This document shows, piece after piece, positions 3,338-54,066 of a DNA stretch of 64,000 nucleotides (positions are counted from its first letter, which is position 1; every line of letters starts with the position of its first letter). The DNA comes from Fibrobacter sp. UWB16. GTDB taxonomy: Bacteria; Fibrobacterota; Fibrobacteria; Fibrobacterales; Fibrobacteraceae. The position numbers and the translations under genes are program-made. The stretch lies in the NCBI RefSeq assembly GCF_900215325.1, contig NZ_OCMS01000001.1, positions 992,001-1,056,000 on the forward strand, read 5' to 3'. The notes below the pieces were generated by a model. That model was not told the DNA's origin, did not search any database, and was given only the letters and a program-made list of their open reading frames with translations.

Positions 3338-6300
3338 ATGTGGTATCAAGGTTTTCTGAAAAAAGCCCTTTTTTCGGCTCTTTTATCGTTCGCAGTCGGC
3401 GCTGTGTACGCCGCAAACGGCAGTTCTTCTATATATAAAGATAGAAGCTCGACAAGTTTCACCAAAACCAGCAAAAAGGTCGTTAGATTCCTGACGCCCT
3501 GGACAAACACATCCGCCATTCTTTACGTCAATGGCGATTCGGCAGCCGTAATGCACAAGATTGACAATTACTGCGGCTGGTTCGAAGCCAAAGCGGACTA
3601 TTCCAACAGCGGATTGTCCGTATCGTTCAAGCAAACCATCGGCAACAAGTATTACGGCGCAGAAGGCGTCGTCAACAGCAAAGTCGATATCGGAAGCGAA
3701 ATTTCGCTCGACAGCGTCGCCGCCCTCGCCGACACCATCTGGGTCCGCAGCTATCAATGGGACGCACCACAGCTCTTTACGCAATACCCCGGCGTTCTTG
3801 GCGATTGCCCCACCAAAAAGCTGCCCGTCATGATGTTTGACTGGTACGACGGCAGCTATAAGAATGTAGCCAAATACCACCCCGAAACGCGAAGTGCAGC
3901 ACTTGGCGGCACAACTGTCCGCGGCGGAACCGGAATCAGCTCCGATTTCGGCGGCGACAACGTTCACTTATGCTGGCCTACCGTACCCGCCGCAGGGCAA
4001 AAAGGCGAAGAGTACGAAGGTTTTGACTACAGAACAGAATACGCCCCGAGTATCGGAAAGTCGATTCAGGGCATGGTGGAAAGCACCTTGGGCCCCAACG
4101 GAGTCCCCGTTCGCAACGAATCCTTCGATTGGGCAGGAAGCTGCCGCAATGCGGAATATTTAAACCATTGGTTTATCCCCGAAACGCTGGTGGTGAAAAA
4201 CGGAATATCCTATACCAACGCAGCATGCAGGGATTTGACTCTTATTTTGGACGACGATGGCATTTGGCGAGGCCAGATGGACATGCAGGCCGATAGCTCG
4301 ACTGGCGAAAAACTGGGCGGAATGTTCTTGTTAGACGACTTCCAATATCTGGACAGCGCAAAGACTATCCCCAACCCGCATTACGATTCAATCCCCAACA
4401 ATGACGCTGGCGACGGAACATACCATAACTACGGTATATCCATGAAGGTCCAGGCAAAATTTGAATATGTAAGGGGCCAGTATTTTGAATTCTTGGGTGA
4501 CGACGATGTTTGGGTATTCATCAACAATAAATTAGTGGTTGATATTGGCGGTGTACATGACCGTCGAAACGGTGCCGTAGACTTGGATACCTTAGGGCTT
4601 GTTGAAGGCAAAGAATATACATTCCATATTTTCTATACCGAACGCTACAAGTACCAAGGCAACTTCAAAATGCGCACTTCGATGGACTTGAAGACCGAAG
4701 CAAGCTTGATCTTGGTTTCGGATATTCGAGATAACATCAAGAATTACGACATTTGGCAAGCGAACAAGAAGGAAGCCCTTTCTTGCGATTTCTCGGCGAA
4801 CGCGCTGATGGACACCACCGGCGGACATTCGACATATAAACTCTCTGGAGGCTCCCTTGCGGAACCTGAAAATCTCAATATTGGCGTTTGGTACGAAGGC
4901 ATCAACATTACAAGCGATACGACATTCTCTATCGATTCTGCCGCCATCGCCGAACATTACGCTTTGAGCCCCGGACACTACTTTATCGAAATCACGCTCA
5001 AGTCCGACCCCTCGCAGACGCAGAAGGTAGAATTCGTCGTTCCGCCCTATTCCATTCCGAGCATCGCATTTGCCGATTCCAGCTGGAAGATTCTCGGCAA
5101 CGAAGTTTCGGGCGACACATTGCAAATTGGCAAGTTGGCCTACGAAATATACCCGGTGCATATTTCGTTCCTTGAAGAATGGGCTCAAGTCAACAATTAC
5201 AACAAGAAAGTCAACTTGACCGTTTCGGATACATTGATTGACATTCTCGATGCAAGCGGCAGCAAGATTTCTACCGTCTCGCTCGATTCCGATGGACACG
5301 CCACTTTCTACCTACGCGCCAATGGCGAAGTTTCTAACGCCACGCTCACCGCACAAGGCGCTGCGGCAACTGCATCTCATTGGGTCAATCTCAAATTCGA
5401 ATTACCTCCGATTCCGCAAGTCGTTGCAGCCAAGATTTTCGACAGAAACGGCGATGGACGAGGCGATAGTCTGCATGTAAAATTCGACAGAGTCGTCGGC
5501 GCTGGCAGCACCCTTGACTCCTTGCAATTCAAGTTCGGTGAGAACTTCCCCGTATATGGCGCAAGCCGTATCGTCGTCAACGGCGACGAAGTCATTGTGA
5601 CGTCCAATGCGAATTGCGCACCGGAAACCGCTTGTGGCTTTGGCAGCAAGCAGTTTACAGGCGGTGAATCCGAAATCTATACAGGTTCCATGACAACATG
5701 GTTCACCTATGTCGACTCGGATCGCAAAAGCTACCATTTCCAGATTGCAAACACCCCCGTCGAAGACCACATCGGCCCCATCATTCTTGCTGCCGAAAGC
5801 CAGAAGAACAATAGCGGAGGACGCCTGTTAAGCCTCACGTTCAGTGAAGCAATTTCGGACAGCACAAGGGCTTATTATGCCAGCATGTTTGAATTCACAT
5901 GCAACAGGAATGGTACAAGCACCACTCCGGATAGTCCGATTACGGCTCTTGGGCATGGCAGCACCATGACTCTTGTTTACGCCGCATCCATAAACGACGA
6001 TGCCATCCCGACGAGCGGCGACCTCATCCGCTTTGCGCCAGAATGGAACCTGACATGTGCCCGCGACTTGTCCAATAACGCCCCGCATTTGAACAACCCC
6101 TGGGTTTTCATCACGGGTGAGCAGAGCCTTTCTGTCGAAAGCCCCAACTTGGTGACGATTTCTGCCGAGAACCCCATTATTGCAAATACAAAGACGACCC
6201 AGCCAATTTTAATTACGGACAATTCTTTAACGGCTCAACAAATCGGCGATTCGCTTGGCGTACAGGGTAACTTGATTGATTTCGACATCTATAAAGTCAT

Positions 6301-7087
6301 TCAGGAAGAAACCCAAAAGGAAATTTCTGCATTGGACGCCTACTTCGACAAGCTCATTGTCGAAGCCGAAGACGATACGGTCTACAGTACTTCTACAATA
6401 AGCGAAGCTGAGGCTTTAAAGCAGCTCTTTGACGACATCGCAAGCGGTATCGTTACAGAATCCTACGGCATTAGCGCAACCGTCATCGAAGCGGTCCAAA
6501 CAGGAGCGCTGACTTCCGAGAATTACAAGAGCAGCAGCCTCTTGACCGCGCTTGACATTGCCGCCATCGACAACTTGAAGCAGAAAAACATTGACGAAAG
6601 CCGTCAAACGAACATGACGATTATCCCTGCTTCGAATGTTACGACGAGCGACATATTCGCCGCAATCATTAGCGGAGCCATCTCGGAAAGCGATCTTTTG
6701 AGCGCCGGTATCAGCAAGGATGTCATCAGTGCCATCAAGGACGGAACGATTACGGCCGACAACATCTCTAGCTACAGAACGGCAGAACAAACGCTGATGA
6801 GCGCAGACCAGGTCACCCTTGCGTACACGACAAGATATTACAGCCATCTTGGACATTACATTGACAAGTCCTCTGGCACAATATCTTGCAGCACAGCTGA
6901 GGTCTACGGTGAAGGTGGCTGCGCCGCCAACAAGGGAAGGCTATTCCTCGCTTGGAACATGCGCAGTAAAAGCGGTAGGCTTGTCGGAACGGGCGTCTAT
7001 ATCGCAAGGCTCCACATCAAGCTCTATGTTGCCGGTCAAAAGAAAATGGACATGACGATGGACAAGTCCTGGGGCGTACGCCGATAA
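3338..7087 (+). CDS. Secreted fibro-slime domain protein (1249 aa)
   Basis: Large exported surface protein. A signal peptide (about residues 1-25, ending AVGAVYAA) is followed by a long N-terminal region and then the fibro-slime domain around residues 380-450. Its hallmark is GDDDVWVFINNKLVVDIGG, a PA14-like beta fold found in Fibrobacter surface slime and adhesion proteins. Beta-rich Ig-like segments follow (VAAKIFDRNGDGRGDSL begins one). Residues about 1025-1145 hold an alpha-helical region with a repeated GAIS/GTIT-type motif. The last 60 residues (GRLVGTGVYIARLHIKL, then SWGVRR) match the end of the other fibro-slime protein at 40363-45213, so they are a shared C-terminal module. ATG at 3338 has AGGGG 8 nt upstream. 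The exact ligand is unknown; its position before pectinase genes is suggestive only. Confidence 0.88.
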   Translation: MWYQGFLKKALFSALLSFAVGAVYAANGSSSIYKDRSSTSFTKTSKKVVRFLTPWTNTSAILYVNGDSAAVMHKIDNYCGWFEAKADYSNSGLSVSFKQTIGNKYYGAEGVVNSKVDIGSEISLDSVAALADTIWVRSYQWDAPQLFTQYPGVLGDCPTKKLPVMMFDWYDGSYKNVAKYHPETRSAALGGTTVRGGTGISSDFGGDNVHLCWPTVPAAGQKGEEYEGFDYRTEYAPSIGKSIQGMVESTLGPNGVPVRNESFDWAGSCRNAEYLNHWFIPETLVVKNGISYTNAACRDLTLILDDDGIWRGQMDMQADSSTGEKLGGMFLLDDFQYLDSAKTIPNPHYDSIPNNDAGDGTYHNYGISMKVQAKFEYVRGQYFEFLGDDDVWVFINNKLVVDIGGVHDRRNGAVDLDTLGLVEGKEYTFHIFYTERYKYQGNFKMRTSMDLKTEASLILVSDIRDNIKNYDIWQANKKEALSCDFSANALMDTTGGHSTYKLSGGSLAEPENLNIGVWYEGINITSDTTFSIDSAAIAEHYALSPGHYFIEITLKSDPSQTQKVEFVVPPYSIPSIAFADSSWKILGNEVSGDTLQIGKLAYEIYPVHISFLEEWAQVNNYNKKVNLTVSDTLIDILDASGSKISTVSLDSDGHATFYLRANGEVSNATLTAQGAAATASHWVNLKFELPPIPQVVAAKIFDRNGDGRGDSLHVKFDRVVGAGSTLDSLQFKFGENFPVYGASRIVVNGDEVIVTSNANCAPETACGFGSKQFTGGESEIYTGSMTTWFTYVDSDRKSYHFQIANTPVEDHIGPIILAAESQKNNSGGRLLSLTFSEAISDSTRAYYASMFEFTCNRNGTSTTPDSPITALGHGSTMTLVYAASINDDAIPTSGDLIRFAPEWNLTCARDLSNNAPHLNNPWVFITGEQSLSVESPNLVTISAENPIIANTKTTQPILITDNSLTAQQIGDSLGVQGNLIDFDIYKVIQEETQKEISALDAYFDKLIVEAEDDTVYSTSTISEAEALKQLFDDIASGIVTESYGISATVIEAVQTGALTSENYKSSSLLTALDIAAIDNLKQKNIDESRQTNMTIIPASNVTTSDIFAAIISGAISESDLLSAGISKDVISAIKDGTITADNISSYRTAEQTLMSADQVTLAYTTRYYSHLGHYIDKSSGTISCSTAEVYGEGGCAANKGRLFLAWNMRSKSGRLVGTGVYIARLHIKLYVAGQKKMDMTMDKSWGVRR

Positions 7088-9185: not shown

Positions 9186-10583
9186 TTAAGGCTTCAGCCG
9201 CTCATACATGGCATTGATCCATTCAGGGCTACGGGCGATTGATTCAACGCGAACTTCGTCAATCACACCATTCCAAGTTTCAGTCCCAATTTCGTCGCCA
9301 CCAATGCGGAAGGGGACGTTACGATTCAGCTCGTTCGGCACAAATTCCCCTGCAAATTCAGCTCCATCGGAACCTGCGATCGCTACCGCTTTACCGTTCA
9401 CATACATGCTCACCATGTGATTCTTGGAAACGAGCACAAGGAAAGCCCACTCCCCAACAGGCACGGATGTTGAATCCCCGAAATACACTGCCCCAGGGTA
9501 GTCCGGCATACCCTTCATTACGGCAAACGTTCCGCTATTCACCTCATAATGCCACTGGAATCGCGATGTAGAATCACTCCAATAAGCTCGCTGGCAAAAC
9601 AACACCTGGTGTTCGCCGTTGGGGCCATTCCACTTGGTCCAAAGCGAAAGTGTAAAGTCGCCGCCCGTTGGATTAAGCGTATCCAAGTCGATAAATTGTC
9701 CCGGTTCCAAAAGCACCGCCTTGCCGTTCACACCATCTACATAGTTTACGTTTTCCGCAACAGAAGAATCATGGTTGAGCACATTGATATCGCGGTTCAT
9801 GCCGAGATAAACTTCAATTTCCGGGTCGCCATACCCATTCGGGAGATTTTCTGGATAATCATACGGAAGGTAATAATGGAAACCATAGTATTCCGCAATA
9901 ACAGGCATATCGTTGCTCGTAAGCCATTCCCCATTGACCGAAAGTTCAGGCAACTTAAGCGAATCCTTCGATTCCAGCGCCGTGAATTCGAGCTGCGCAA
10001 TTGCCGAATCATTCTGCATGTACACAAGGTCCATTCTATAGCCCGCCGGAATGGAATCGAACGCAAATGAGCCATCTTCACTGATAGGAGAACGCAAATG
10101 AGTTCCCTGAATGCGCATATAACCAGAAGTCGCCCCGGCAATTTTTCCACTTACAGTCTTATGCGGACCAATACAAATCGTATCCAACCTTACGTCAGAG
10201 AGTCCATCGCCACGCAAACCGGACAGCCCTTTGGATTCCGCATAGAAACGCGGAGAACCTTTCGCCGAGATCCTTGGAATCGGACCTAGCTTAAAGAACC
10301 CTGTAGAATCAGCGACCGTTTCAAGCGAATCCACAATTTCTTTCGAATTATCCAAGTAGGCAACGACACGCGCAGCAGGAACAGCACGCCCCTGCAAGTC
10401 CTGCACTACACCGGAATACCTCAGCGTATCAGACAAATCCGCAATTGAATTTCCGATATCGGTCACTCCACCGGCCACATCATCGCTATCCGAGCAAGCC
10501 AGGAACGACAACGAAAACGCAAGCGACATCACGCACGCAACGCAATTACGCGATAACTTTAGATAAACTTGTCTATTTTTCAT
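9186..10583 (-). CDS. Surface lipoprotein with carboxypeptidase-regulatory-like and LamG domains
   Basis: 465 residues. The lipoprotein signal ends in SFLAC (Cys30). Residues about 52-120 form a CarboxypepD-regulatory-like beta-sandwich (GVVQDLQGRAVPAARVVAY, then DSTGFFKLGPIP). The C-terminal 200 residues form a LamG/concanavalin-like domain (FTLSLWTKWNGPNGEHQVLF, then WNGVIDEVRVESIARSPEW), usual for glycan binding. The start overlaps the end of the TIGR02147 gene by 11 bases, so the two are translationally coupled. A second protein of this design is at 22807-24477. Probable role: outer-membrane sensing or binding of polysaccharide (inferred). Confidence 0.8.
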   Translation of the reverse strand: MKNRQVYLKLSRNCVACVMSLAFSLSFLACSDSDDVAGGVTDIGNSIADLSDTLRYSGVVQDLQGRAVPAARVVAYLDNSKEIVDSLETVADSTGFFKLGPIPRISAKGSPRFYAESKGLSGLRGDGLSDVRLDTICIGPHKTVSGKIAGATSGYMRIQGTHLRSPISEDGSFAFDSIPAGYRMDLVYMQNDSAIAQLEFTALESKDSLKLPELSVNGEWLTSNDMPVIAEYYGFHYYLPYDYPENLPNGYGDPEIEVYLGMNRDINVLNHDSSVAENVNYVDGVNGKAVLLEPGQFIDLDTLNPTGGDFTLSLWTKWNGPNGEHQVLFCQRAYWSDSTSRFQWHYEVNSGTFAVMKGMPDYPGAVYFGDSTSVPVGEWAFLVLVSKNHMVSMYVNGKAVAIAGSDGAEFAGEFVPNELNRNVPFRIGGDEIGTETWNGVIDEVRVESIARSPEWINAMYERLKP

Positions 10584-11424
10584 TTTCCGCCTCCTTCCCT
10601 ATTTTCTTGCTCATCGGGAACGCCACAAACATCATTTCGTAAACGCGTTCCACTTCCGAATCATTTGCCGCACGGGCAATAATTTTCTTGCGGGCTTCTT
10701 CCAGCACCTCTACCGCATAATTGTAGGATTTTTCACTCATCGCAAGAGTCGTGAACGCAGCAAAGCGCTCATCTTTGGGCATGGATTCCACAGCCCCCAT
10801 CGCATGCTGCATATACTCATGACGGATTCGCCGCAGCGCCATTGGCGGGATTTCCGAAGCATCAAGCATTTGCGATGTTTCAACATAGCGTTCACCCTCT
10901 TTTTTCAAGAGTCCCCATTCCAGCAGCTTTTTCACCGCATCGCGAGCCTCATCCGTCGTTATCTGCGGCACAACAGAACGCGCAAGCACACGGAAGTCAC
11001 CTTCCCAATCCGATGACACCGCCAACTCGCGCACAATCGGGTAATACCACTTTTCAAAGTATCCCTGTTCACGAGTCGTGACATGTGTAAATTCTATCTG
11101 CTTGCGAATTTGGACAATCTGGTTCCAAGCATTTTCGCGCTCATCAACTTGTTGAGCCTGGTTGTACTGCACCAGCGCTTCGAAATACGTCCTTTGCAAC
11201 GGTTCAAATTCCATCGCCTTTGAAATTTTCTCGATGGATTTCGGAGTCAAATTGAAACGGCCACGGATAACATTCAGACAATAAGAAGAGCTACTGAATC
11301 CCGCTTTTGCCGCAAAAAATCGATGCGAAAACACCGACCGCATTTTCTTCTGTTCCTCAAAATAGTCTTGCAGGAACTTGCGGAAGTCGTCATAGTCAAA
11401 CAAGTGTTCAAGCGCAATGCACAT
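10573..11424 (-). CDS. TIGR02147-family protein (DUF4423-like, putative regulator)
   Basis: 283 residues, soluble, no signal peptide. The N-terminus (DYDDFRKFLQDYFEEQK, then FSHRFFAAKAGFSSSSYCLN) is the family signature and resembles an XRE-type helix-turn-helix, with SHRFFAAKAGF as the likely first helices. A long alpha-helical C-terminal part follows, with a winged-helix-like segment (DEARDAVKKLLEWGLLKKEGERY). The family is expanded in Fibrobacter and has no proven function known to me; a regulatory role is inferred from the fold. It is the first gene of a two-gene operon with the LamG lipoprotein and diverges from the secreted HExxH gene. No Shine-Dalgarno precedes the ATG. Confidence 0.85.
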   Translation of the reverse strand: MCIALEHLFDYDDFRKFLQDYFEEQKKMRSVFSHRFFAAKAGFSSSSYCLNVIRGRFNLTPKSIEKISKAMEFEPLQRTYFEALVQYNQAQQVDERENAWNQIVQIRKQIEFTHVTTREQGYFEKWYYPIVRELAVSSDWEGDFRVLARSVVPQITTDEARDAVKKLLEWGLLKKEGERYVETSQMLDASEIPPMALRRIRHEYMQHAMGAVESMPKDERFAAFTTLAMSEKSYNYAVEVLEEARKKIIARAANDSEVERVYEMMFVAFPMSKKIGKEAENEK

Positions 11425-11445
11425 GGTTTTAAACTATAATATTTT

Positions 11446-11522
11446 TACACAAAAATCAATAAAATACACAAAATTACAATCAAATCAATATATTTCATTA
11501 ATTATTCTTACACATTTACACA
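11446..11522. promoter_or_regulatory. Cluster of four TACACA boxes in a divergent AT-rich spacer
   Basis: TACACA occurs at 11446-11451, 11465-11470, 11509-11514 and 11517-11522, between the divergent TIGR02147 gene and the 11618 gene. Repeated words in a very AT-rich divergent promoter region could be binding sites for a regulator, possibly the TIGR02147 protein. Chance is possible given the composition. Confidence 0.35.
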
Positions 11523-11617
11523 TTTCTAACACAGAAAATCATTCCATTTTTCTTAAAAATTTGCATTAGGACGCACCAAAAATTATTTCTCTGAATAGCA
11601 TAAAAATGGAGTGTGTT

Positions 11618-14008
11618 ATGCAAAAAAGTTGTTTGGGATGGATTCCGGGCGCCGTTTTGTCGGCTGCCCTAGGTGTTCACACATACGCGGCGTCGGGTGA
11701 TGCTTACACATGGCCCGGCTATCGCAGCGACCTGGATTACGATACGAAATCGAATCTGGGCGATATCCAACCGCCGACCAAGTTCAACAACAATTGTTCG
11801 GGCGTTACCGGAAAGAAGGCCGGTAAGTGGTGGGCGTTTTACTGGGGCAAGGATCGCGACAGCCGCATTACCGATGTGACGATTGATTCGATTCTTAAGA
11901 AGTACGATACCGATTTTGAGTATTTGTACAATGAGATGGGATGGGCGCCGGATGCCCAGGCGCAAGAAGGCCAGTACAGCGCCATTTATTACTACGGTTC
12001 GGGGACATGTGCCGGTGGCGCAAAGACGGATACTACGGGCGGTTGGCAGACATGGGTAGCAGGCTACACGGCCGTGGCCGCTTCGTTTTATCCGCTGTAC
12101 AGTTTTAATACGAGTTGCCCTTACCGTGATCGCGTGGCGCAGATGGATGCGATGATTCATGAGGGAATTCACTCGATGACGAATGGTTACCCAGGCGCAA
12201 AGGATGCGCACTGGTTCCAAGAAGCGGGCAACACCTGGATTCAGCAGGATATGTTCAGCCACCGCGACGGTGTTTACAGCGGTATGGGATTCTTGAACGC
12301 GGCGACGGTCATTGCGCCGTTTATGCCAATTGAAACTTATTCGGGCTGGCTCATTGACGGTACTTTCGGTGGCCCTGGCGGCGGTGCCGATGGCGGTGGC
12401 GTGACCGGCAAGAATCAGCGTTACCTGCTGGGGGGCTCGCAGTACAGCAACATCTTCCCGACATTTATCGGCACATGGATTGGAACGGGTGCGGTTCGCT
12501 GGATTTACGGAAACGCTTACGGCAAGACCAAATACCTGCTTGAAACTTACGGCCTCGACAAGGGTCTTGGCGATGCGGGCGTGCGCAGGCTCATTACCGA
12601 ATTCCGCGCAAGGCTTGCAATGCTCGACATGAAAAAATGGTCCGGCGAAATCAAGAATTTGCTGAACCAGCATTTTGGAAGCGACACCTACTGGGAACAG
12701 GACATGTGGGACAATAACAGGAAAAGCTACACCTGGACCATGACGCCCTACCAGACGGTGACGGAAAGCAACGGCTACCTTGTTCCGAATCAGGAAACGA
12801 CTCCGGGATGGTCGGGCTCGAATGTGGTGCCGCTGAAGGTGCAAAGCGGCGCTAAAGAAGTGACGGTGAGTTTCTACCCGAACGGCGCAAATTCCAATAA
12901 CAAGAACATGAATTTCTTGCTGTGCTACCGCGCGACCGACGGTACACCTGTGTACAGCGAACCCATTACAGGCGAAGGTTCCGCGACGCTTCGCCTGGAC
13001 AAGACGCCTTCTTCGACGAACGGCACGCCGATGGTTTTCGCGGTCATCGTGAATACCGATTACCAGTACACCGGCAATACGGGAATTCGCAAGTTGCATT
13101 ACGATTATAAGTTGAAACTGGAAACGGGCGTCAGCGGCGCTGGTGCTGCAAACGTCAAGTATTACAATGACTTCAAGCTAGATTACGCATGGCCTGAAAT
13201 CGGAGACGCACCGACAAGTTCGAGCAGTTCCGTATCGCCGAAATCTTCGAGCAGCAGCGAGATGCCCGCGAGCTCCAGCAGTTCTGCAAAAATCGTCACG
13301 GACGGTGCCACGACATATTCTATCTCAGTGACGCTTCCGATTGACGACAACTACGCCACCATTTCTGCAAAATTTGATATCAGCGAGGTTGCGAAGAAAC
13401 TCGGACTCACCACAGCAACGCTCACGCAGGCACAATTCTTCGCACTAGAAAGCGACGGTAATATCGTGACCAACAGTACCGCTACCGCTCCGGGTCATTG
13501 GTTTGGTAAAGACAGCAAGGTGGTGGAATGGGGCGAGTCCGCCTACATATTCAGCGAAACAGATTTATCAAGCGGTACACTCGCAATAGGCCACTACCCC
13601 AACCGAGTCAGCAATGGTGACAAATTTAACTTTACGCAGGGACTCACTTACAATGGAAAAACGGTCCTTTTCAAAGTCATGGTCAGCATTACCAACGGGT
13701 TAGGCAGTGACGAAAGCGGAAAGACCACAGCTCTGATGTACGGACTTGATAAAGTTTCGACACACATGAACCTCGCCCTCCGTAATGGAAATCTCGAAAT
13801 CCGTTACACGCTCCCTCAGCGCGACAATGTGAAGATAAGCCTATTCAACGGATTCGGAGCATTGCTCGCACAAGAAATCACGGGAATGCAAAACGCAGGC
13901 TTGCACAAGCGTTCGCTCAACATGAGCCAAATACCGCGCGGCACCTACATCGTAAAAATCACAACGGGCAGTTACCGCGAAGCAAGACCGATTAACATCA
14001 CAAGATAA
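11618..14008 (+). CDS. Secreted HExxH protein with DUF4859-like domain and sorting tail
   Basis: 796 residues. A signal peptide (MQKSCLGWIPGAVLSAALGV, then HTYAA) precedes a catalytic-looking domain of about 500 residues with HEGIH at 181-185 and a downstream Glu202 in HWFQEAGN. That is the arrangement of gluzincin-type zinc metallopeptidases. The domain may correspond to a DUF6055-like family. A Ser-rich linker (about 525-550) leads to a beta domain resembling DUF4859 (APGHWFGKDSKVVEWG), then a type IX-like tail (PRGTYIVKITTG). The upstream ATG at 11606 is rejected because GGAG at 11608 is the Shine-Dalgarno for ATG 11618. It heads the run leading to the PL11 and PL1 genes. The substrate is unknown; peptidase activity is inferred from motifs only. 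Confidence 0.75.
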   Translation: MQKSCLGWIPGAVLSAALGVHTYAASGDAYTWPGYRSDLDYDTKSNLGDIQPPTKFNNNCSGVTGKKAGKWWAFYWGKDRDSRITDVTIDSILKKYDTDFEYLYNEMGWAPDAQAQEGQYSAIYYYGSGTCAGGAKTDTTGGWQTWVAGYTAVAASFYPLYSFNTSCPYRDRVAQMDAMIHEGIHSMTNGYPGAKDAHWFQEAGNTWIQQDMFSHRDGVYSGMGFLNAATVIAPFMPIETYSGWLIDGTFGGPGGGADGGGVTGKNQRYLLGGSQYSNIFPTFIGTWIGTGAVRWIYGNAYGKTKYLLETYGLDKGLGDAGVRRLITEFRARLAMLDMKKWSGEIKNLLNQHFGSDTYWEQDMWDNNRKSYTWTMTPYQTVTESNGYLVPNQETTPGWSGSNVVPLKVQSGAKEVTVSFYPNGANSNNKNMNFLLCYRATDGTPVYSEPITGEGSATLRLDKTPSSTNGTPMVFAVIVNTDYQYTGNTGIRKLHYDYKLKLETGVSGAGAANVKYYNDFKLDYAWPEIGDAPTSSSSSVSPKSSSSSEMPASSSSSAKIVTDGATTYSISVTLPIDDNYATISAKFDISEVAKKLGLTTATLTQAQFFALESDGNIVTNSTATAPGHWFGKDSKVVEWGESAYIFSETDLSSGTLAIGHYPNRVSNGDKFNFTQGLTYNGKTVLFKVMVSITNGLGSDESGKTTALMYGLDKVSTHMNLALRNGNLEIRYTLPQRDNVKISLFNGFGALLAQEITGMQNAGLHKRSLNMSQIPRGTYIVKITTGSYREARPINITR

Positions 14009-14206: not shown

Positions 14207-16483
14207 ATGAACAAAATTTGGTGTTTGGGATTGTCCCTAGCGCTTGGGCTAGGGAGTGCGCAGGCTGCGCGACAGATGGAATGGCTGAATCGCGGCTTGG
14301 TCGCTGTCAAGACGACTAACGGAGTTTTCCTCAGTTGGCGAGTTCTCGGAACAGACGGCAATACGACCGGTTTTAACCTGTACCGCGATGGCGAGAAAAT
14401 CGCTAGTTTTACGGGTTCACAGGCAAGCAACTACACAGATACAAAAGGAACAGCATCGAGCAAATACTCAGTGAAGGCTGTTGTCGGCGGCAAGGAAATG
14501 GCGGCGGATGCAGCAGTTTCTGTTTGGAGTAATCAATATCTGACCGTAAATCTTGACCGTCCGAATGGTGGGAGCGATTACACCTACAGCCCGAACGATA
14601 TCGCGGTAGGCGATGTAGACGGCGATGGAGAATTTGAGCTGATTCTCAAGTGGGATCCGAGCAATTCTAAAGACAATTCGCAGAAGGGCAAAACCGGCAA
14701 CGTCATCATCGATTGCTACAAAATGAATGGCAAAAAGTTGTGGCGCGTTGACCTCGGCGTAAATATTCGCGCAGGGGCGCATTACACGCAGATGCTCGTG
14801 GGCGACTATGATGGCGACGGCAAGGCAGAATTTGCCGTAAAAACAGCGCCCGGAACAAAGGACGGTAGCGGCAATTACTTGTCACTCGGTTCTGCAAAAG
14901 GCGCAGACCACAGCAAGGATTACAGGAATTCAAACGGCTACATTCTTTCAGGTCCCGAATGGCTCACGATTTTTAACGGCGAAACCGGCAAGGAAATGGC
15001 GACGGTTGATTACAATCCAGGTCGTGGCACCGTCAAGAGCTGGGGCGATAGCTACGGCAACCGCGTTGACAGATTCCTCGCGACAAACGCCTACCTTGAT
15101 GGTAAAAAGCCGAGTATGGTATTTCAGCGCGGTTACTACACCCGAATGGCAATTACCGCCTACGATTGGGACGGCAAAACGCTTTCACAGCGCTGGTATT
15201 ACAACGCGGCAACGAGCGGACAGGAATGTTACGGGCAAGGCAATCACAACATTTCCGCAGGCGACGTGGATGGCGACGGTTTCGATGAAATCATTGAAGG
15301 TAGCAGCGCCATTGACCACAACGGGAAATTCATGTACCGCACAGGCAAGGGTCACGGCGATGCCATGCACTTGAGCGATCTCGACCCCGATAATCCCGGT
15401 CTTGAAGTTTGGCAAGTTCACGAAGAAAAGCCCTACGGCTACGATTTGCACGATGCCCGCACCGGCAAGTTGCTTTTTAGCGAAACGAGCTCCGGGGACA
15501 ACGGGCGCGGCGTCGCAGGTGACGTAGATTCACTAAACCGCGGACACGAACTTTGGTCTGCCGCAAACTGGAACACCTATACCGTAAAAGGAAAAATTTG
15601 GAAAGCAGACAAGCGCCCCGCTTATAACTTCCGTATTTATTGGGATGGCGACTTGCTTGATGAACTGTTGGACAATACGACCATCAGCAAGTGGGACCAT
15701 GCCAAGCAACAGAGCAATACGCTTTTTCAGATGCAGGGCAACAGCTGCAACACCACCAAGGCAACGCCGAACTTTAGCGGTGATATTTTAGGCGACTGGC
15801 GCGAAGAAGTCATTTTGCATGATGGAGCTTCCAAGCTCTACATCTACACGACCACCATTCCGACGGAACACCGTATGTACACGCTTGCGCATGACCCGAT
15901 TTACCGTCTCGGCATGAGCTGGCAAAACACGGCCTACAACCAGCCTCCACATTTGGGATTCTGGCTGTACGGTAACAAGGACAAGTTCCCGACGCCTGAC
16001 ATTACGCTCGTCGGCGATCATACACCGAAACCCGCCGCGATTATCAAGCAGGGCGCAGGTTCCAGCAGCCAAGCCATTGCGCTCGGTGATTCGATTGTCC
16101 CGTTCACTTTTGCAATCCAGAATGCCGATGGTGCAACAGTCAAAAACCTCCCTGCAGGCGTAACAGCCAAATGGAACGCACAGACAAATTCTCTATACTT
16201 CAGCGGAACTCCGACCGTCAGCGGAGAGTTCACCTACACGATCACCACAAAGGGAGGCAACGCGGAATACGGCGAAGCAACCCGCAGCGGGAAATTTACA
16301 ATTACCGACACAAATGCCCCTATTATTCCTGCGGATAGTACAAATGGCATAGCGGATTCCACGACAACATCGCTAAAGTCCCATGTGCAAAGAATGCTGA
16401 TGAATGGTTCCGGGCGAATTTATGATTTGCGAGGTCGTCTCGTGAAACAACGTAAACATAGAGGTGTTTACTTGACGCGATAA
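14207..16483 (+). CDS. Secreted rhamnogalacturonan lyase, PL11-type
   Basis: Cleaves the rhamnogalacturonan-I backbone of pectin outside the cell. 758 residues: signal peptide (ending GSAQAA), then a short N-terminal Fn3-like beta domain (GLVAVKTTNGVFLSWRVLG), then the eight-bladed beta-propeller of PL11. The blades carry repeated Ca-binding DxDGDGxxE loops (VGDVDGDGEFELILKWDPS, VGDYDGDGKAEFAVKTAPG, AGDVDGDGFDEIIEG). WREEVILHDG and HRMYTLAHDPIYR are also typical. A C-terminal Ig-like segment and a tail YDLRGRLVKQRKHRGVYLTR end the protein. The Shine-Dalgarno-like GGGATAGGAT precedes the ATG. The next gene starts 12 bases after the stop, so the two form an operon. Confidence 0.92.
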   Translation: MNKIWCLGLSLALGLGSAQAARQMEWLNRGLVAVKTTNGVFLSWRVLGTDGNTTGFNLYRDGEKIASFTGSQASNYTDTKGTASSKYSVKAVVGGKEMAADAAVSVWSNQYLTVNLDRPNGGSDYTYSPNDIAVGDVDGDGEFELILKWDPSNSKDNSQKGKTGNVIIDCYKMNGKKLWRVDLGVNIRAGAHYTQMLVGDYDGDGKAEFAVKTAPGTKDGSGNYLSLGSAKGADHSKDYRNSNGYILSGPEWLTIFNGETGKEMATVDYNPGRGTVKSWGDSYGNRVDRFLATNAYLDGKKPSMVFQRGYYTRMAITAYDWDGKTLSQRWYYNAATSGQECYGQGNHNISAGDVDGDGFDEIIEGSSAIDHNGKFMYRTGKGHGDAMHLSDLDPDNPGLEVWQVHEEKPYGYDLHDARTGKLLFSETSSGDNGRGVAGDVDSLNRGHELWSAANWNTYTVKGKIWKADKRPAYNFRIYWDGDLLDELLDNTTISKWDHAKQQSNTLFQMQGNSCNTTKATPNFSGDILGDWREEVILHDGASKLYIYTTTIPTEHRMYTLAHDPIYRLGMSWQNTAYNQPPHLGFWLYGNKDKFPTPDITLVGDHTPKPAAIIKQGAGSSSQAIALGDSIVPFTFAIQNADGATVKNLPAGVTAKWNAQTNSLYFSGTPTVSGEFTYTITTKGGNAEYGEATRSGKFTITDTNAPIIPADSTNGIADSTTTSLKSHVQRMLMNGSGRIYDLRGRLVKQRKHRGVYLTR

Positions 16484-19232: not shown

Positions 19233-20081
19233 TTATTTTCCGCCGACAGGGAACAGCGCAAATTGCAACTGAAAAACTTTATCTGAATTCTTATCTTCTT
19301 CGGCGATGAGCGCAATTTCCTTGCGGAAGGCGTTGATGCGCTCCACGATGCGTTCGTAACCTTCCTGGCTAATGCCTAGCGTAAGCCCAGAAACATGACG
19401 CGAGCCCGGCGGGTCGCGATCAATAGAATCCGCAGCAAGCTTTAGACAATGCTGGTGGAAACCGCGCAGCGCAAGTTTTGACGTGCGGTCCCCCGTGCTA
19501 ATCGCGCTCTCGGTGAGCACGTATTTGCCGTCATCCCCTTTCTTGATAAGTTCACAGTCTTCGAGCAACTTGACCGATTTTTTTGCCTCGTCCGCCGTCA
19601 CATGCGGGTGGACCATTTTCGCAAGCGCTTCATAATCGCCGTCAAAACCGAACATGCCGATAAGACTGCGAATAATCAGGTGCCGCCAATGCGAATACAC
19701 CATGTACTGCGCATGCCCGAGAATATGCTGTTTCTCGGAAAAGCGCACCACCTTGAGCGCCGCCTGCATTTCTTCAAACGCAGCATTGCGCTCCTCCATC
19801 GTATCCGCCTGATTGAACTTCACAAGCCCAATAAAAAACTCGGTCTCGTGCTTACCCAAGCGAAGTCCAGAAGCCACTTTCGGGATGCTCGCGCTCGAAA
19901 GATTCTTGTCACCGTTCATCACGCGACTGATGAAATCTTTGGCCTTGAACCCGATTTTATCCGAGAAAACGCGGAGCGAAAAGGCAGGGTTCGCCTCCTT
20001 CTTTGCGCTATAATAATCCTTCAAAAAATCCCGGTAGTCCAGGTATTCGAAGATTTTTTTCCCTAGTTTCTTTTCGCCCAT
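19233..20081 (-). CDS. TIGR02147-family protein (DUF4423-like, putative regulator)
   Basis: 282 residues. Same design as the copies at 10573 and 53251: DYRDFLKDYYSAKKEANPAF, then SLRVFSDKIGFKAKDFISRV as the helix-turn-helix-like region, an internal winged-helix-like stretch (DEAKKSVKLLEDCELIKKGD), and a C-terminal half with SGLTLGISQEGYERI. This copy has no lipoprotein gene behind it; it faces the end of the lyase operon. It diverges from the pectate lyase at 20367. No Shine-Dalgarno is present. TACATT at 20088-20093 lies 6 nt before the ATG, which suggests a leaderless transcript. A role in controlling the neighbouring pectinases is inferred only. Confidence 0.84.
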   Translation of the reverse strand: MGEKKLGKKIFEYLDYRDFLKDYYSAKKEANPAFSLRVFSDKIGFKAKDFISRVMNGDKNLSSASIPKVASGLRLGKHETEFFIGLVKFNQADTMEERNAAFEEMQAALKVVRFSEKQHILGHAQYMVYSHWRHLIIRSLIGMFGFDGDYEALAKMVHPHVTADEAKKSVKLLEDCELIKKGDDGKYVLTESAISTGDRTSKLALRGFHQHCLKLAADSIDRDPPGSRHVSGLTLGISQEGYERIVERINAFRKEIALIAEEDKNSDKVFQLQFALFPVGGK

Positions 20082-22745: not shown

Positions 22746-22806
22746 CGATTACTATAGCGATTAATAGCCCACCCGCTTTTAGCAAATCTTATATATATTG
22801 GTATCA

Positions 22807-24477
22807 ATGAAGTTCTGCAAAAACATATTGGCTGTTTCAATTGCGTCCGCCGCAATTTTTGGAGGTTGCTCCTCCGACAGCCATATTGCAGGCAACAGCG
22901 CCGAGACGGGTTCTCCTGAACTCGCCGGCATTTTCCTTTTGGATAACGGCAAGCCCGCCGCATTTGCGCGCGTGCATTGCGTCCCTAGCGACTTTGACGC
23001 GGCCTCAGGCGAGCTCCCCGCCGCCTACACCACGGAAACAGATTCCACAGGCTACTACAGCCTCGATTCCATTCCTGCAGGCACTTACGCCGTCGAAACT
23101 TTCCATGAAGAATCCGGCAAGCGGTTCCTCGAACAAAACGTAAGCATCACCGAAGACGATTCCATCGCCGTTAGCGACACACTCCGCGCACCAGGCTCTG
23201 TCGAAATCGCGTTCAACAGCCTCATTGAAGACGGCACGTCCGCCGTGGTCACAATCCCAGGAACGACCATTTTACGCAAAGTGACAGTCCTCGGGCAAAA
23301 AGCCATTATCGACAGCTTACCCACCGACACGCTCGGTCTCAGAATTTATATAGAAAACGACACGTTGGATTACGGGGATGTCTACGTCAAATCAGATACG
23401 ACCGTCCAGACGCTCGTCAACTATCCCCACATCGAATACACGTTCGTCGCCCCGCTTGCACTCCCCGAAGGCGAAGACACGCTCTCGTCTTTTGTGAGCG
23501 ACATTCCGCTTGCGCTCCGCCTGACCGCAGAAAACAGCGACATCGATACACTCGCTCGCTTGCAAGGCCGCTGGGAAGTTGTACGCATTTCAAAAGATGG
23601 CAAGCGCAGCAAAAAGCTCCCGATTGTGAATTCAGCCTTTGACGAAAAAGAAGCTATTTTCTGGGTAAGCGTGGATTCTCTAAACGTCTCCGACTCACTC
23701 GAACTTTCATTCAACAACGCGCTTGAATCAGGTTACGCTCACGACGTATTCCCGACTAACCGCAGCTATTCTCTCGTGTACCATTTCGATAGCGGAACCG
23801 ACATCAAGGACGATGCCGAAAAGGGCTATTTCGACGGATCGCTAACCGCCACAGAAACGGGAACCGAAACGGTGGCAAATCTCAACGCAGACGGCGTTCT
23901 CGGCACATCCATCGCGCTAGACGCGACAACATCAATCACCGCGACAAACTCCGCCAAGATAGACTCATCTCGCAAGGTTAATTTGTCCTTTGACGGCAAG
24001 CAATTCTGTTTCTCGCTGTGGGTTAACCTCGAATCGCTAAAGCAACAGACCATCTTTGAAAAAGCAAACGAATATGCGCTCCGCTACGAGCCAGACCAGG
24101 GCTTTGTCGTAGAATTCTACCACGTTGCCACCAAAAAAACAGGCGACGAAAACTCCACGGACACCACAAGTTACAAACAAACGTGGACATCCGGTACAAA
24201 AGGAATTGAAGCAGGCAAATGGATATTCATTGCATTCAGCAAGCATTCCATACCACAAACAAGTTACTTTATCAACGGCGTTAAAATCGAAGCCGAAGAA
24301 ACCCGCAGCGATTGGGATGGCAACCGCGAGCTCACAGACTTTAAAATCGGTGGATTCACCGGGAAAATAGACGAGCTCATGCTCGGTAGCGCATTCCGCG
24401 ACGATTCCTGGACTCGCCTCACCTACCTCAATCAAAAGCCCGAAGATTCCTGGCCAAAACTTTCCGCAAAAAAGTAA
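22807..24477 (+). CDS. Surface lipoprotein with carboxypeptidase-regulatory-like and LamG domains
   Basis: 556 residues. The lipobox is FGGC (Cys21). Then comes a CarboxypepD-regulatory-like domain (GIFLLDNGKPAAFARVHCVP, DSTGYYSLDSIPAGTYAVE), a central beta region, and a LamG domain (FCFSLWVNLESLKQQTIFEK, GKIDELMLGSAFRDDSW). It is a paralogue in layout of the lipoprotein at 9186-10583 and lies downstream of a pectate lyase. ATG at 22807 is preferred to TTG at 22798 because it gives a clean lipoprotein signal. There is no Shine-Dalgarno, and TATATT at 22794-22799 is 7 nt upstream, which suggests a leaderless mRNA. Probable glycan-binding outer-membrane lipoprotein. Confidence 0.78.
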   Translation: MKFCKNILAVSIASAAIFGGCSSDSHIAGNSAETGSPELAGIFLLDNGKPAAFARVHCVPSDFDAASGELPAAYTTETDSTGYYSLDSIPAGTYAVETFHEESGKRFLEQNVSITEDDSIAVSDTLRAPGSVEIAFNSLIEDGTSAVVTIPGTTILRKVTVLGQKAIIDSLPTDTLGLRIYIENDTLDYGDVYVKSDTTVQTLVNYPHIEYTFVAPLALPEGEDTLSSFVSDIPLALRLTAENSDIDTLARLQGRWEVVRISKDGKRSKKLPIVNSAFDEKEAIFWVSVDSLNVSDSLELSFNNALESGYAHDVFPTNRSYSLVYHFDSGTDIKDDAEKGYFDGSLTATETGTETVANLNADGVLGTSIALDATTSITATNSAKIDSSRKVNLSFDGKQFCFSLWVNLESLKQQTIFEKANEYALRYEPDQGFVVEFYHVATKKTGDENSTDTTSYKQTWTSGTKGIEAGKWIFIAFSKHSIPQTSYFINGVKIEAEETRSDWDGNRELTDFKIGGFTGKIDELMLGSAFRDDSWTRLTYLNQKPEDSWPKLSAKK

Positions 24478-31322: not shown

Positions 31323-32933
31323 TTAATCTTCACAAGTGCCGTAGGCACCGATTTTTTCAATATCAAATTTTATTTCACCGGCATCGTCCCACAGTGAGAA
31401 ATAAAATCTTATCGTATACAAATGTTGTACAGTTTCATTAATTGTTTTCCATTCGTTTCTAGGAACCCAATTGACACGAGAAAAATCAGACCAGCGGATA
31501 TTTATGACATCCCCATCTCCAAATGTTTCTGGCAACATATAAGAAAGCGATTCAAATTCTTCACCCGCTTCCATAGAAAGCAAAGCAAGTCTCATGTCCG
31601 GCTTATCCGCTTTATACTTTAAACATAAACCAAGCCAAGAGGAAACATCCGAGCCATTATTTTCATCTGGAGTTACATTAAAGCCCATCCAGAAGTTTTC
31701 TGTCTTTTCGCCGTCTACATTTTCATCATAATTATCAGGCTCAGGCTGAACAACCTTAACCGATATGATATTATGCCCCTCATGGACAAGCTCTTGATCG
31801 TCATTTACTTCAAAATACATATCTGCAAAATACTTACCCTGTTCAGGATCTTCTTCAATTACCTCATCATAATTAGGCCCCCAATAGGCCTCGGTTACAC
31901 CCGATTTTCCCATATACCACCAGCCACCATTCCAGTCAACATTTTCACCCACAAGTTCACAATCCGCAAAATTATCAGGATCAGTTATACCACTGGAGAG
32001 GACGCGATGATTGGGGCTACAAAATCCATCCGCACTATTCTTTCCATAGTACCAGGCATCGAAACCAACACCGCGGACCTTCTCTACATCCTTGCCATTC
32101 TTGATGATGCCAACGCTCTCACCACCACACATCAGTTCAAAACCAGAACCATCTTCGAGAGCAGAAGCCGTACAGCTAGAACCATTCCTGCCTTTAACAC
32201 CATTGGTCCCATTTTTGATTATACCGACAACATTTCCACCACAAGAAAGTTCAAAGCCAGATTCATCAGCAAGCGCCGTAGCATTACAACTGGAGCCTTC
32301 TTCACCTTTTTTACCATTTTCACCATTCTTTATGGTACCAACCACCTTGCCACCACAAGTCAGTTCAAAACCGGAGTTATCGGCCAGAGGCTCCGCACTG
32401 CAACTTGTGCCGTTTTTTCCATTGGAGCCATTCTTAACCATTCCGACAACTTCACCACCACAGATTAATTCATAACCAGATTTATCATCAAGAGCCTTAG
32501 CACTACAGCTTGTGCCATTCTCGCCATTTGTTCCATTAATACCATTGGCTCCATTCGAACCATTCTTGATAACGCCAACAACTTCGCCATCACAAGAGAG
32601 TTCAAAGCCCGATTTGTCCGTCAAGGCCTTTGCCGTGCAGCTTGAGCCATTGACACCATTGACGCCGTTTGTTCCATTTTTACCATTAGTTCCATTGGTG
32701 CCATTCTTTATGGTGCCGACCACCTTGCCACCACAAGTCAATTCATAACCGGAGTCATCGTCCAAAGCTTTAGCACTGCAACTAGTGCCATTCTCTCCAT
32801 TTTTGCCAGCAACGCCTTGTTCTCCTGCAGGTCCCTGAGGGCCTTCAGAATCTTCACCGCATGCGTTAAACGCAAGCATGGACACGAACGAAAACGCAGC
32901 AACCGCTGCATATTTTTTAAGCTTGATAGACAT
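31323..32933 (-). CDS. Collagen-like lipoprotein with six Cys-bracketed repeats
   Basis: 536 residues. The lipobox is AFNAC (Cys25). After EGPQGPAGEQGVAG there are six modules of about 28 residues (SC-x-A-x-x-L-x-D-x-SGFEL-x-C-G-G, then VG-x-IKNG), joined by collagen-like Gly-Xaa-Asn triplets such as GTNGTNGKNGTNG. Each module has two Cys able to form a disulfide. The C-terminal 230 residues hold the same beta domain as the neighbour (ending IEKIGAYGTC). Start 32933 is chosen because AGAGGAGC precedes this ATG; a longer reading frame to 32978 lacks support. Likely a stalk that projects a ligand-binding domain from the outer membrane. Confidence 0.8.
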   Translation of the reverse strand: MSIKLKKYAAVAAFSFVSMLAFNACGEDSEGPQGPAGEQGVAGKNGENGTSCSAKALDDDSGYELTCGGKVVGTIKNGTNGTNGKNGTNGVNGVNGSSCTAKALTDKSGFELSCDGEVVGVIKNGSNGANGINGTNGENGTSCSAKALDDKSGYELICGGEVVGMVKNGSNGKNGTSCSAEPLADNSGFELTCGGKVVGTIKNGENGKKGEEGSSCNATALADESGFELSCGGNVVGIIKNGTNGVKGRNGSSCTASALEDGSGFELMCGGESVGIIKNGKDVEKVRGVGFDAWYYGKNSADGFCSPNHRVLSSGITDPDNFADCELVGENVDWNGGWWYMGKSGVTEAYWGPNYDEVIEEDPEQGKYFADMYFEVNDDQELVHEGHNIISVKVVQPEPDNYDENVDGEKTENFWMGFNVTPDENNGSDVSSWLGLCLKYKADKPDMRLALLSMEAGEEFESLSYMLPETFGDGDVINIRWSDFSRVNWVPRNEWKTINETVQHLYTIRFYFSLWDDAGEIKFDIEKIGAYGTCED

Positions 32934-52325: not shown

Positions 52326-53240
52326 TTAAAATAACTGAATAAAATCATAGATGCTTTGATTTGATACGCAACGTTCAATTATATACGTAGCATACTTTTT
52401 CCAATAAGGATCTGTGTAAGTTTCAATGCCGTCCTTCAATTCAGCATTCGTGGCCCAACATGTCATTCGGAAGCCATCGTTCTGAACAAGTTCACCGTTT
52501 TCGAGAGTACAATCCTTTTTGAATTCCTCTCTAACAGTAGAATCAGTCGATTCCAAATATTTTATAACGGTAAGGGCTTTACGCATTGGATGATCTTTTT
52601 CCCTAAAGTAAACTTCATAACGAGACGAAAAACCCAAATAATGACTGTTATCATAATAGGTTTTGCGATAATCTTCGAAACTCATTTGCACGGAGTTTCC
52701 ACCAACATACGTAATTCCACAGCTAACATCTTTTCCAAGTCCAACAGCAGACTTATAGCTATCTCTAAACGAAATATCTCCATGAATCAAACCATCCTCA
52801 TCCTTCATTGCCACGTAGGTTGTATGATTCTTTTCGAAATCACCAGGATCATCGGGATATATAGTTGCAAAATGCACGGTAGGATCATTGGGATTTACAT
52901 CTACAAGACGTACGGTAGGATCGATATTAAGGATTGATTGAACAGCCCTATCAAAGGATTCATGTGCAGTAACAGAATCTGTTTGATAACCGGTTTCTCC
53001 TGCTACATGACTATAAGTCACCGCAGTTCCTCTACTAACACCTACAAGAGCTACTATTGCACTTTCTTCTTTTAGGTACGGAATTCCTTTTAGAGAATTT
53101 GATGACCCCGGCTTTGTCCCCTGAGCCATCGTGTTCGTTTGTTCATCAGCCCCCACCACCTTATTATCGGAACAAGCGGTAAAGGCGCCCATCACGCTCA
53201 TGGCTGCGAGCGAAAGCGGAATGATTTTTTTGATATTCAT
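52326..53240 (-). CDS. Lipoprotein of unknown function in the TIGR02147 cassette
   Basis: 304 residues. Lipobox GAFTAC (Cys23), a linker (VVGADEQTNTMAQGTKPGSS), then a soluble domain. Conserved with the 51496 paralogue are the ESFDRAVQSIL / ESYNRLVQSFL helix, MKDEDG/MKEESG, and YTDPYWKKYATYIIERC. It begins 10 bases after the stop of the TIGR02147 gene with GGAGG before its ATG, so they are one operon. The arrangement mirrors the TIGR02147-LamG pair at 9186-11424. No ligand can be inferred. Confidence 0.72.
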   Translation of the reverse strand: MNIKKIIPLSLAAMSVMGAFTACSDNKVVGADEQTNTMAQGTKPGSSNSLKGIPYLKEESAIVALVGVSRGTAVTYSHVAGETGYQTDSVTAHESFDRAVQSILNIDPTVRLVDVNPNDPTVHFATIYPDDPGDFEKNHTTYVAMKDEDGLIHGDISFRDSYKSAVGLGKDVSCGITYVGGNSVQMSFEDYRKTYYDNSHYLGFSSRYEVYFREKDHPMRKALTVIKYLESTDSTVREEFKKDCTLENGELVQNDGFRMTCWATNAELKDGIETYTDPYWKKYATYIIERCVSNQSIYDFIQLF

Positions 53241-53250
53241 GGTTTCCTCC

Positions 53251-54066
53251 TTATACTTTTTCCGACAGCGGGAAAAGCTGTAAATTTAAACGATAAACTT
53301 GGTTGATTTTTTTGGATTCGCCAGCAATGGCAATAACTTGTTTGCGGAAACGGTCCACCTCTTCGGAGAGGCGTATTACCGTAGCTTCGTCCACGCCTAT
53401 CGTCACACCCGAGATGTTACGTTCACCCGGAGCGATTTTTTCGATAGCTTCGCGGGCAAGATCAATCATTTGACCATTCATGGAGCGGAGAGCAAGCGTT
53501 AGAGATTCTCCAGAACCCGTAATAACTTTATCCGTTTGTTCATAAACGTTTTCACCAAGCGCCTTGAGCAAATCGAGTTTCACCAAAAGCTTTAGCGAAT
53601 CGCGGACTTGCTGCGCCGTAAACGTATGCTTGATTTTTTTGACAATTTCACCTGGAAGCGCGCCAGGCATCAACGGCGCAAGTTCACGAACAACAGAATT
53701 CACCGCCGATTCATAATAATCAAATGCATCCGCATTCAACACTCGAGCATGCTGTTCACTTGCAAGCCCCTTCATCTTGAGGAATGCCTCTTTTTTCTTG
53801 TCATCGTCTTTGGCATTCGTAAATTCAACCATGAGCTTGAAATACTCGCATTCAAATTCATTCAGCCCCATCGCAGCAGCCACAAGCGGGACGCCCACGC
53901 GGCTCAGCGAGCTCTTGCCATCGCATACAAGTTTCAAGTACGATGGCGACGAGAACCCGGCGATCTTGGAAAATTCGCGCCACGAAAACGCAGAACTTCT
54001 TTTTCGCCAGTCGAAATAATCAAGCATGTACTTTCGGTAATCTTGATATTCGGTTATCGGTTTCAT
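53251..54066 (-). CDS. TIGR02147-family protein (DUF4423-like, putative regulator)
   Basis: 271 residues. YQDYRKYMLDYFDWRKRSSA, then FSWREFSKIAGFSSPSYLKL, form the helix-turn-helix-like N-terminus, followed by a C-terminal helical region (RDSLKLLVKLDLLKALGENV, NISGVTIGVDEATVIRLSEE). Unlike the other two copies it has a full Shine-Dalgarno AAGGAGG (54074-54080) and a promoter with 17-bp spacing upstream. It is followed by two lipoprotein genes. An inverted repeat in the promoter could be its own binding site (speculative). Confidence 0.85.
   Translation of the reverse strand: MKPITEYQDYRKYMLDYFDWRKRSSAFSWREFSKIAGFSSPSYLKLVCDGKSSLSRVGVPLVAAAMGLNEFECEYFKLMVEFTNAKDDDKKKEAFLKMKGLASEQHARVLNADAFDYYESAVNSVVRELAPLMPGALPGEIVKKIKHTFTAQQVRDSLKLLVKLDLLKALGENVYEQTDKVITGSGESLTLALRSMNGQMIDLAREAIEKIAPGERNISGVTIGVDEATVIRLSEEVDRFRKQVIAIAGESKKINQVYRLNLQLFPLSEKV

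Follow-up and report, generated by a model that had tools for sequence, protein, structure and literature searches.

How a regulator that acts in the cytoplasm could be tied to a lipoprotein that leaves it is the question raised by a gene pair in a 64,000-nucleotide stretch of the Fibrobacter sp. UWB16 genome (hereafter the window; contig NZ_OCMS01000001.1, positions 992,001 to 1,056,000). The first gene encodes a member of the TIGR02147 (Fsuc_second)/DUF4423 (PF14394) family: its match spans positions 4-272 of the 272 in the TIGR02147 profile and scores 210.4 bits, above the curated cut-off of 50 bits (30 bits for DUF4423). It shares 11 bases (10573-10583) with the gene of its partner lipoprotein, and AGGAGG lies just 5' of the lipoprotein ATG. 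The original prediction held that the two are coupled, that the lipoprotein senses glycan at the surface, and that the TIGR02147 protein passes the state to promoters. Our analysis confirms the coupling, which extends through the family and across the phylum. On balance, we favor a different role for it, namely a locally autoregulated two-gene module in which a DNA-binding regulator is dedicated to one lipoprotein.

The window pair is one of many. The 3.56-Mb genome contains 34 TIGR02147 genes, 33 of which are followed directly by a lipoprotein gene on the same strand, at gaps of -23 to +29 nt. All 33 downstream partners have a signal peptide with a hydrophobic core and a lipobox cysteine, identified by pattern or by eye, and are predicted to be lipidated (four partners were recognized by eye rather than by script, and some lipoboxes contain W or T). 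By comparison, of 305 genes sampled from this genome (20 stretches of 20 kb), 17 directly precede a lipoprotein gene, some of these cases being probably false (Fisher exact p 4.4e-32). The original prediction had made its case depend on a genome-wide enrichment of lipoprotein neighbors, and this enrichment is present.

What the partners have in common is a feature that the earlier reading had missed, a short peptide behind the lipidated cysteine, which we call the tag. When the 34 partners are aligned, Met1 and the cysteine are the only invariant columns, with one further near-invariant column, a glycine eight residues past the cysteine (consensus ACS....AG....E..N..A). Domain annotation at E<=1e-3 identified FISUMP in nine partners, CarboxypepD_reg in nine, LamG in three, and a pectate lyase and a CBM_4_9 domain in one each, besides others. 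Judged from their sequences, the partner bodies are thus unrelated, and the tag is their sole common part. A looser tag pattern occurs in 30 of the 33 downstream partners and in 5 of 47 unlinked lipoprotein-like frames from the same genome; with a stricter pattern, the counts fall to 23 and 2, respectively. A profile built from 27 tags gave 31 matches at E<1e-3 in the whole genome, all inside TIGR02147 operons; these comprise the 27 training rows and four second lipoproteins of such operons, and the next-best matches that we read, located in regulator-free stretches, do not resemble the tag. Some pairs stand in tandem: four follow one another at G000 C1:1282908-1295885 (locus L044), and a second array lies at G000 C3:131-152 kb (loci L035 and L036), where several operons carry a tagged second lipoprotein. 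Four consecutive lipoprotein genes with similar signal peptides were also seen at G000 C3:239-243 kb (locus L319, 2700-6600); they bear no clear tag, and the 7.5-kb stretch around them contains no TIGR02147 gene.

Comparison of the window pair with its orthologs indicates that the tag is under selection as a peptide. In seven comparisons, the regulators are 84-98% identical and the lipoproteins 42-84%. Across the orthologous lipoproteins, the top residue reaches a mean fraction of 0.93 in the tag region, compared with 0.42-0.45 in the signal peptide and 0.51 over the following 23 residues. Pairwise comparison of 13 non-redundant orthologs gives 262 synonymous differences and 0 nonsynonymous ones in the nine tag codons, against 614 synonymous and 1194 nonsynonymous differences in the 40 columns after them; selection thus operates on the peptide rather than on DNA or RNA. 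Ten ortholog clusters each possess their own version of the tag, such as aGTVTDTGNTiA, vAGGTEAESTIAL, or GATTEP. The nine-column tag window was picked as the best among the first 30 columns, which introduces a bias; in clusters with at least five members, it is the best window within 150 residues in seven of eight cases and the second best in the eighth. Conservation of the tag is lower in some clusters (0.75-0.86). Several orthologs of the window regulator contain an in-frame stop (one TGA, TAA, or TAG), that of locus L219 (genome G147) among them; this may reflect decay of the pair in some species or, alternatively, assembly errors.

The pairing is preserved far beyond this genome. TIGR02147 was detected in 110 of the 120 Fibrobacterota genomes sampled and in none of 14 control genomes. 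A lipoprotein accompanies all 29 loci retained from that search in other genomes, which, being the best-scoring matches, largely represent the same few ortholog groups. Close relatives of the regulators of this genome occur in named Fibrobacter genomes, where all 83 testable regulators at 80 loci are paired (82 by script and locus L211 by eye; L192, at a contig edge, was excluded). In 12 genomes from 12 families (30 loci), the lipoprotein lies directly downstream of 27 of the 29 testable regulators (26 by script and L085 by eye; L090 was excluded for the same reason). At locus L107, a tagged lipoprotein is found immediately upstream of the regulator instead, which brings the paired regulators to 28 of 29, and at L092, no lipoprotein is present within 8 kb. 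Outside the phylum, plasmid pBdHAGR1 of Bdellovibrio sp. HAGR004 carries a TIGR02147 relative (locus L135, 4019-5571) with an exported-protein gene directly downstream of it at -4 nt. The product of this gene has a signal peptide without a lipobox, and KVIGNGGNEIAL stands behind its likely cleavage site. The pairing of regulator and exported protein may therefore reach Bdellovibrionota. A scan of genome contigs revealed no relatives of the Bdellovibrio protein, a search of viral contigs with the Fibrobacter regulator alignment found no relative, and a DUF4423 search of five genomes returned nothing further.

The single regulator of this genome that lacks a downstream lipoprotein also lies in the window, at 19233-20081. 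None of the 30 orthologous loci, the window's own included, has a lipoprotein in that position. At four of them (L268, L270, L273, and L275), however, the direct divergent neighbor, 123 nt away, is a lipoprotein tagged AGNSAETGSPELAG, which is the ortholog of the window lipoprotein encoded at 22798-24477; in the window, one gene separates the latter from the regulator. Eight longer stretches orthologous to this locus contain the tagged lipoprotein in three cases and lack it in five. Since the partner is kept as a divergent neighbor at four loci, the partnership does not require a shared transcript, and gene order can vary while the partner persists, as in the upstream arrangement at L107.

Structural models point to the TIGR02147 protein as a probable DNA-binding regulator. 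AlphaFold2 models of the window regulator (pLDDT 80.7) and of the regulator at 53251-54066 (pLDDT 86.8) both comprise an N-terminal five-helix domain, a winged helix, and two long helices. The five-helix domain aligns with HigA and phage repressors at Z 8.5 (81 residues, 3.2 Å) and Z 8.5 (75 residues, 2.5 Å), and at Z 9.1 in another comparison of the N-terminal fold, where HigA entries lead. Foldseek matched the window regulator to a helix-turn-helix repressor with probability 0.99 and E 0.27; neither model gave a hit below E 0.001 (0.21 or worse for the window regulator, 0.035 or worse for that at 53251-54066), and the fold is therefore read at the domain level. From sequence alone, the Bdellovibrio relative matches HTH_3 (E 1.1e-4) and a GntR-type winged helix (0.004), both under the curated cut-offs. 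No solved structure related by sequence was found (best E 0.59). One regulator, at C1:96147-96725 (locus L031, 4971-5531, minus strand), matches only profile positions 77-270 and thus apparently lacks the helix-turn-helix; its partner has a degenerate tag, and this pair is possibly decaying. A hydropathy scan of the 34 regulators and 33 mature lipoproteins detected no transmembrane segment beyond the signal peptide in either protein: over 19 residues, the maximum among the regulators is 1.51, and none of the mature lipoproteins exceeds 1.6. A surface signal would therefore have no visible route to the regulator. The proposal that the TIGR02147 protein relays a state to promoters is supported in its DNA-binding half, as the modeled fold and a conserved word in the protein's own divergent promoter suggest, but finds no support in the relay, for which no path across the envelope is visible.

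That word, TGTGTAA, occurs three times between the window regulator and the divergent gene, at 21, 84, and 92 nt upstream of the regulator's ATG. The 250 nt upstream of 20 orthologous regulators contain 57 copies of GTGTAAA or its complement, against 1.2 expected. At least two copies of GTGTAA are present in 19 of 22 non-redundant promoters, compared with an average of 0.02 per 250 nt in 357 background stretches. Apart from such words, the orthologous promoters cannot be aligned (median identity 0.31), and an exact 7-mer recurs at least three times in 86% of them, versus 13% of the background. In other ortholog clusters, the top words differ (GGTGTTC, TGATACA, GTCCACA). Two GTGTAA words within 30 nt are found at only three places genome-wide, the window promoter being one of them, and we therefore see no wide regulon; we read the GTGTAAA repeats as a local, private putative operator. 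A promoter and terminator scan gave nothing above shuffled sequences.

Taken together, we infer that the cytoplasmic regulator binds the repeats upstream of its own gene (GTGTAAA in the window pair) and thereby controls the expression of its single dedicated lipoprotein. Binding would probably repress, given that the nearest word begins 21 nt upstream of the ATG. About 34 copies of such a module would exist in the genome, each with its own partner, and the module would be conserved across Fibrobacterota. The body of the lipoprotein appears free to vary (LamG, FISUMP, TTR-like, lyase, carbohydrate-binding module (CBM)), while the tag is constant within each ortholog group and may be the element that ties the lipoprotein to its module. 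Several results weigh against this reading. When the promoters of this genome are examined one by one, just 26% of the 34 contain an exact 7-mer at least three times, versus 13% of the background, and at least two copies of GATACA occur in 1 of 10 promoters of one recognition-helix class and in 1 of 24 others; given this weak signal, the operator claim is based on the window pair and the ortholog clusters, whose promoters are not independent. In addition, 7 of the 34 partners fell short of E<1e-3 when held out of the tag model, the tag being degenerate in a minority.

How the module might sense its own product is a more tentative matter. If the two proteins make physical contact, the simplest place for it would be the cytoplasm, ahead of export, with the tag as the obvious candidate site. 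Each regulator would then read the tag of its own lipoprotein, giving about 34 insulated feedback loops that gauge the precursor of each lipoprotein still awaiting export. Covariation between tag and regulator is absent among diverged pairs, which also counts against a link through the tag (rho 0.02 for own, 0.03 for distant, and 0.10 for pooled pairs; permutation 95% level 0.09-0.14), and segments after the tag covary at least as strongly (pooled 0.19 for +23..+43). Covariation having given no support, we hold pre-export reading of the tag to be doubtful. If true, it would represent a new kind of export-coupled gene control, in which the post-cysteine peptide, besides belonging to an envelope protein, would serve as a private ligand for the regulator of its own gene, and the paradox of signaling from envelope to cytoplasm would be resolved without a membrane relay.

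Table 1. Features of the window pair and of related genes (window coordinates).
Feature	Position	Strand	Details
TIGR02147/DUF4423 regulator, 283 aa	10573..11424	-	NCBIfam 210.4 bits; Pfam DUF4423 81.9 bits
XRE-type helix-turn-helix domain, residues 11-95	11140..11394	-	AlphaFold2 pLDDT ~95; HigA/phage-repressor Z ~8
Winged-helix domain, residues 115-187, start of DUF4423	10864..11082	-	helix-helix-helix-strand-strand; MarR/ArsR Z ~7
Partner lipoprotein, 465 aa	9186..10583	-	shares 11 bases with regulator gene
Signal peptide of partner lipoprotein, residues 1-29	10497..10583	-	ends ..SLSFLA, then C30
Predicted lipidated Cys30 of partner lipoprotein	10494-10496	-	
Conserved tag AGGVTDIGN, lipoprotein residues 37-45	10449..10475	-	identical in 30/30 orthologs
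LamG (Laminin_G_3) domain, lipoprotein residues 301-456 (C-terminal)	9216..9683	-	Pfam E 9.4e-19
TGTGTAA word, putative operator	11445..11451	-	21 nt before regulator ATG
TGTGTAA word, putative operator	11508..11514	-	
TGTGTAA word, putative operator	11516..11522	-	
Second TIGR02147 regulator, without downstream lipoprotein	19233..20081	-	300.9 bits
Tagged LamG lipoprotein (CSSDSHIAGNSAETGSPELAG), likely partner of 19233-20081	22798..24477	+	second gene of divergent operon
Third TIGR02147 regulator	53251..54066	-	AlphaFold2 pLDDT 86.8
Lipoprotein partner (CSDNKVVGADEQTNTMA) of 53251-54066	52326..53240	-	gap 10 nt

The window pair does diverge from pectin genes, as originally described: upstream of the regulator lies a gene on the plus strand (11606-14008; DUF4859, weak DUF6055), followed by genes for a rhamnogalacturonan lyase (14207-16483) and a PelZ-like lyase (16496-19156). 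A large protein with fibro-slime and PA14 domains (3338-7087, plus strand) adjoins the pectin genes. Elsewhere, the window encodes a protein with FHA and GGDEF domains, probably a diguanylate cyclase (45520-46335, plus strand), and a reading frame with collagen-like repeats (31323-32978, minus strand; Pfam PF01391, 3.2e-7).

This setting, together with the LamG domain of the window lipoprotein and the promoter words between regulator and divergent gene, is what could favor the original proposal that a surface lipoprotein binds glycan and its state is passed to the regulator and on to promoters of carbohydrate-active enzymes (CAZymes), such as those of the divergent pectin operon. Some partners also carry lyase or CBM domains, and several neighbors are CAZymes: matches near the pairs appear slightly commoner than in controls among the top 25 families listed (56 of 65 neighbors and 58 of 60 controls scanned, the other 9 neighbors being genes of the tandem arrays). 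Most partners, however, lack a recognizable glycan-binding domain, LamG itself being restricted to 3 of 34. The divergent gene accompanies 14 of 30 orthologous loci, whereas the lipoprotein is present at all 30; the tight GTGTAA pair points to no wide regulon, and no transmembrane path is visible. The data thus do not support a glycan-sensing lipoprotein or the pectin link, and we consider this explanation improbable. A membrane-spanning sensor pair of the anti-sigma type was rejected as well, no membrane-spanning protein having emerged from the hydropathy scan.

A stronger alternative, although still rather unlikely in our view, is that the genes are merely co-transcribed and that envelope machinery reads the tag as a handling signal, for surface export or an outer-membrane slot, with the regulator never sensing the lipoprotein. 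Tag and regulator indeed do not covary beyond close relatives, and the tag is close to the site of the Bacteroidetes lipoprotein export signal (as given in an excerpt of PMC5080379). Unlinked lipoproteins, however, lack the tag by the stricter pattern (2 of 47), and the profile gave no match at E<1e-3 outside TIGR02147 operons; paralog-specific versions, each kept among orthologs, would be odd for one common machine, and the partnership persists in other gene orders. The many parallel copies with unrelated bodies, the tandem arrays, and the local promoters with repeated words could also be accommodated by stochastic on/off switching that makes surface lipoproteins differ from cell to cell, perhaps as a defense against phages. 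We assign a small likelihood to this idea: no sign of bistability emerged, although no invertible or slipped-strand switch was sought. Finally, the overlapping two-gene operon and the lead of HigA among the N-terminal fold matches recall a toxin-antitoxin-like pair of a HigA-type regulator and an envelope toxin; given that the partner has a lipoprotein signal peptide and that none of the 34 partners belongs to a toxin family at E<=1e-3, we consider this highly implausible. Type II toxin-antitoxin (HigBA), which would call for a RelE/HigB-fold toxin as partner, was likewise rejected as a known system, since the scan of the 34 partners revealed no toxin family.

The autoregulated module bears on how a gut fiber degrader manages its envelope. 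The Fibrobacter succinogenes genome paper, in the portion available to us, treats the transcriptional control of cellulases as an unanswered question, with few recognizable regulators nearby (PMC3079729). Here, about 34 probable DNA-binding regulators in one genome, so far named merely as a paralog family, are each tied to one envelope lipoprotein. In proteomics data excerpted from PMC6851124, 40 of 49 quantified putative lipoproteins are lower on cellulose, so that substrate does affect lipoprotein levels. Our results suggest dozens of private envelope-protein switches in this organism, seemingly unstudied, and the nine-residue tag of the window pair offers a handle on how a regulator in the cytoplasm might be linked to a lipoprotein that is exported.

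Autoregulated gene pairs that include a helix-turn-helix regulator are known in general. What we did not find in print, among open-licence PMC papers, is a phylum-wide version with dozens of copies per genome and a partner bearing a private post-cysteine tag. In the same literature, we found no mention of TIGR02147 and no description of the regulator-lipoprotein pair, its tagged partner, or its promoter words; DUF4423 appears in a Bdellovibrio proteome table, as far as the accessible part of that paper goes, and the family name carries no function. The FISUMP/Fib_succ_major domain (TIGR02145) is missing from 25 of the 34 partners and therefore does not define the partner.

Among characterized systems, HigA-type XRE antitoxins resemble the window regulator in the modeled N-terminal fold, the overlapping two-gene operon, and probable autoregulation, but the regulator model has an extra winged helix, and its partner is an exported lipoprotein rather than a cytoplasmic toxin. 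The PrgX/TraA and Rgg repressors (RRNPP) have an XRE-type DNA-binding domain, as the TIGR02147 regulators probably do, and are marked by a TPR-type peptide-binding domain at the C-terminus; PrgX aligns with our model over the helix-turn-helix only, beyond which the model has the winged helix and two long helices. In the PrgX system, the signal is a peptide from a lipoprotein N-terminus (excerpt of PMC7117660). The window lipoprotein differs in that its signal peptide varies among orthologs and the peptide that is conserved lies behind the cysteine; a PrgX-type pheromone, with a conserved signal-peptide end, was rejected on these grounds (mean top-residue fraction 0.42-0.45 for the signal peptide versus 0.93 for the tag). 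The Bacteroidetes lipoprotein export signal is, like the tag, a short conserved motif just behind the lipidated cysteine, consisting, according to the excerpt of PMC5080379, of charged residues at about +2 to +6 in surface lipoproteins generally. An acidic motif of this type was considered and rejected, acidic residues at +2..+6 averaging 1.33 in paired and 0.96 in unlinked lipoproteins. In contrast to the Bacteroidetes signal, the tag sits for the most part farther from the cysteine (its core occupies +8 to +16 in the window pair) and is restricted to regulator-linked lipoproteins.

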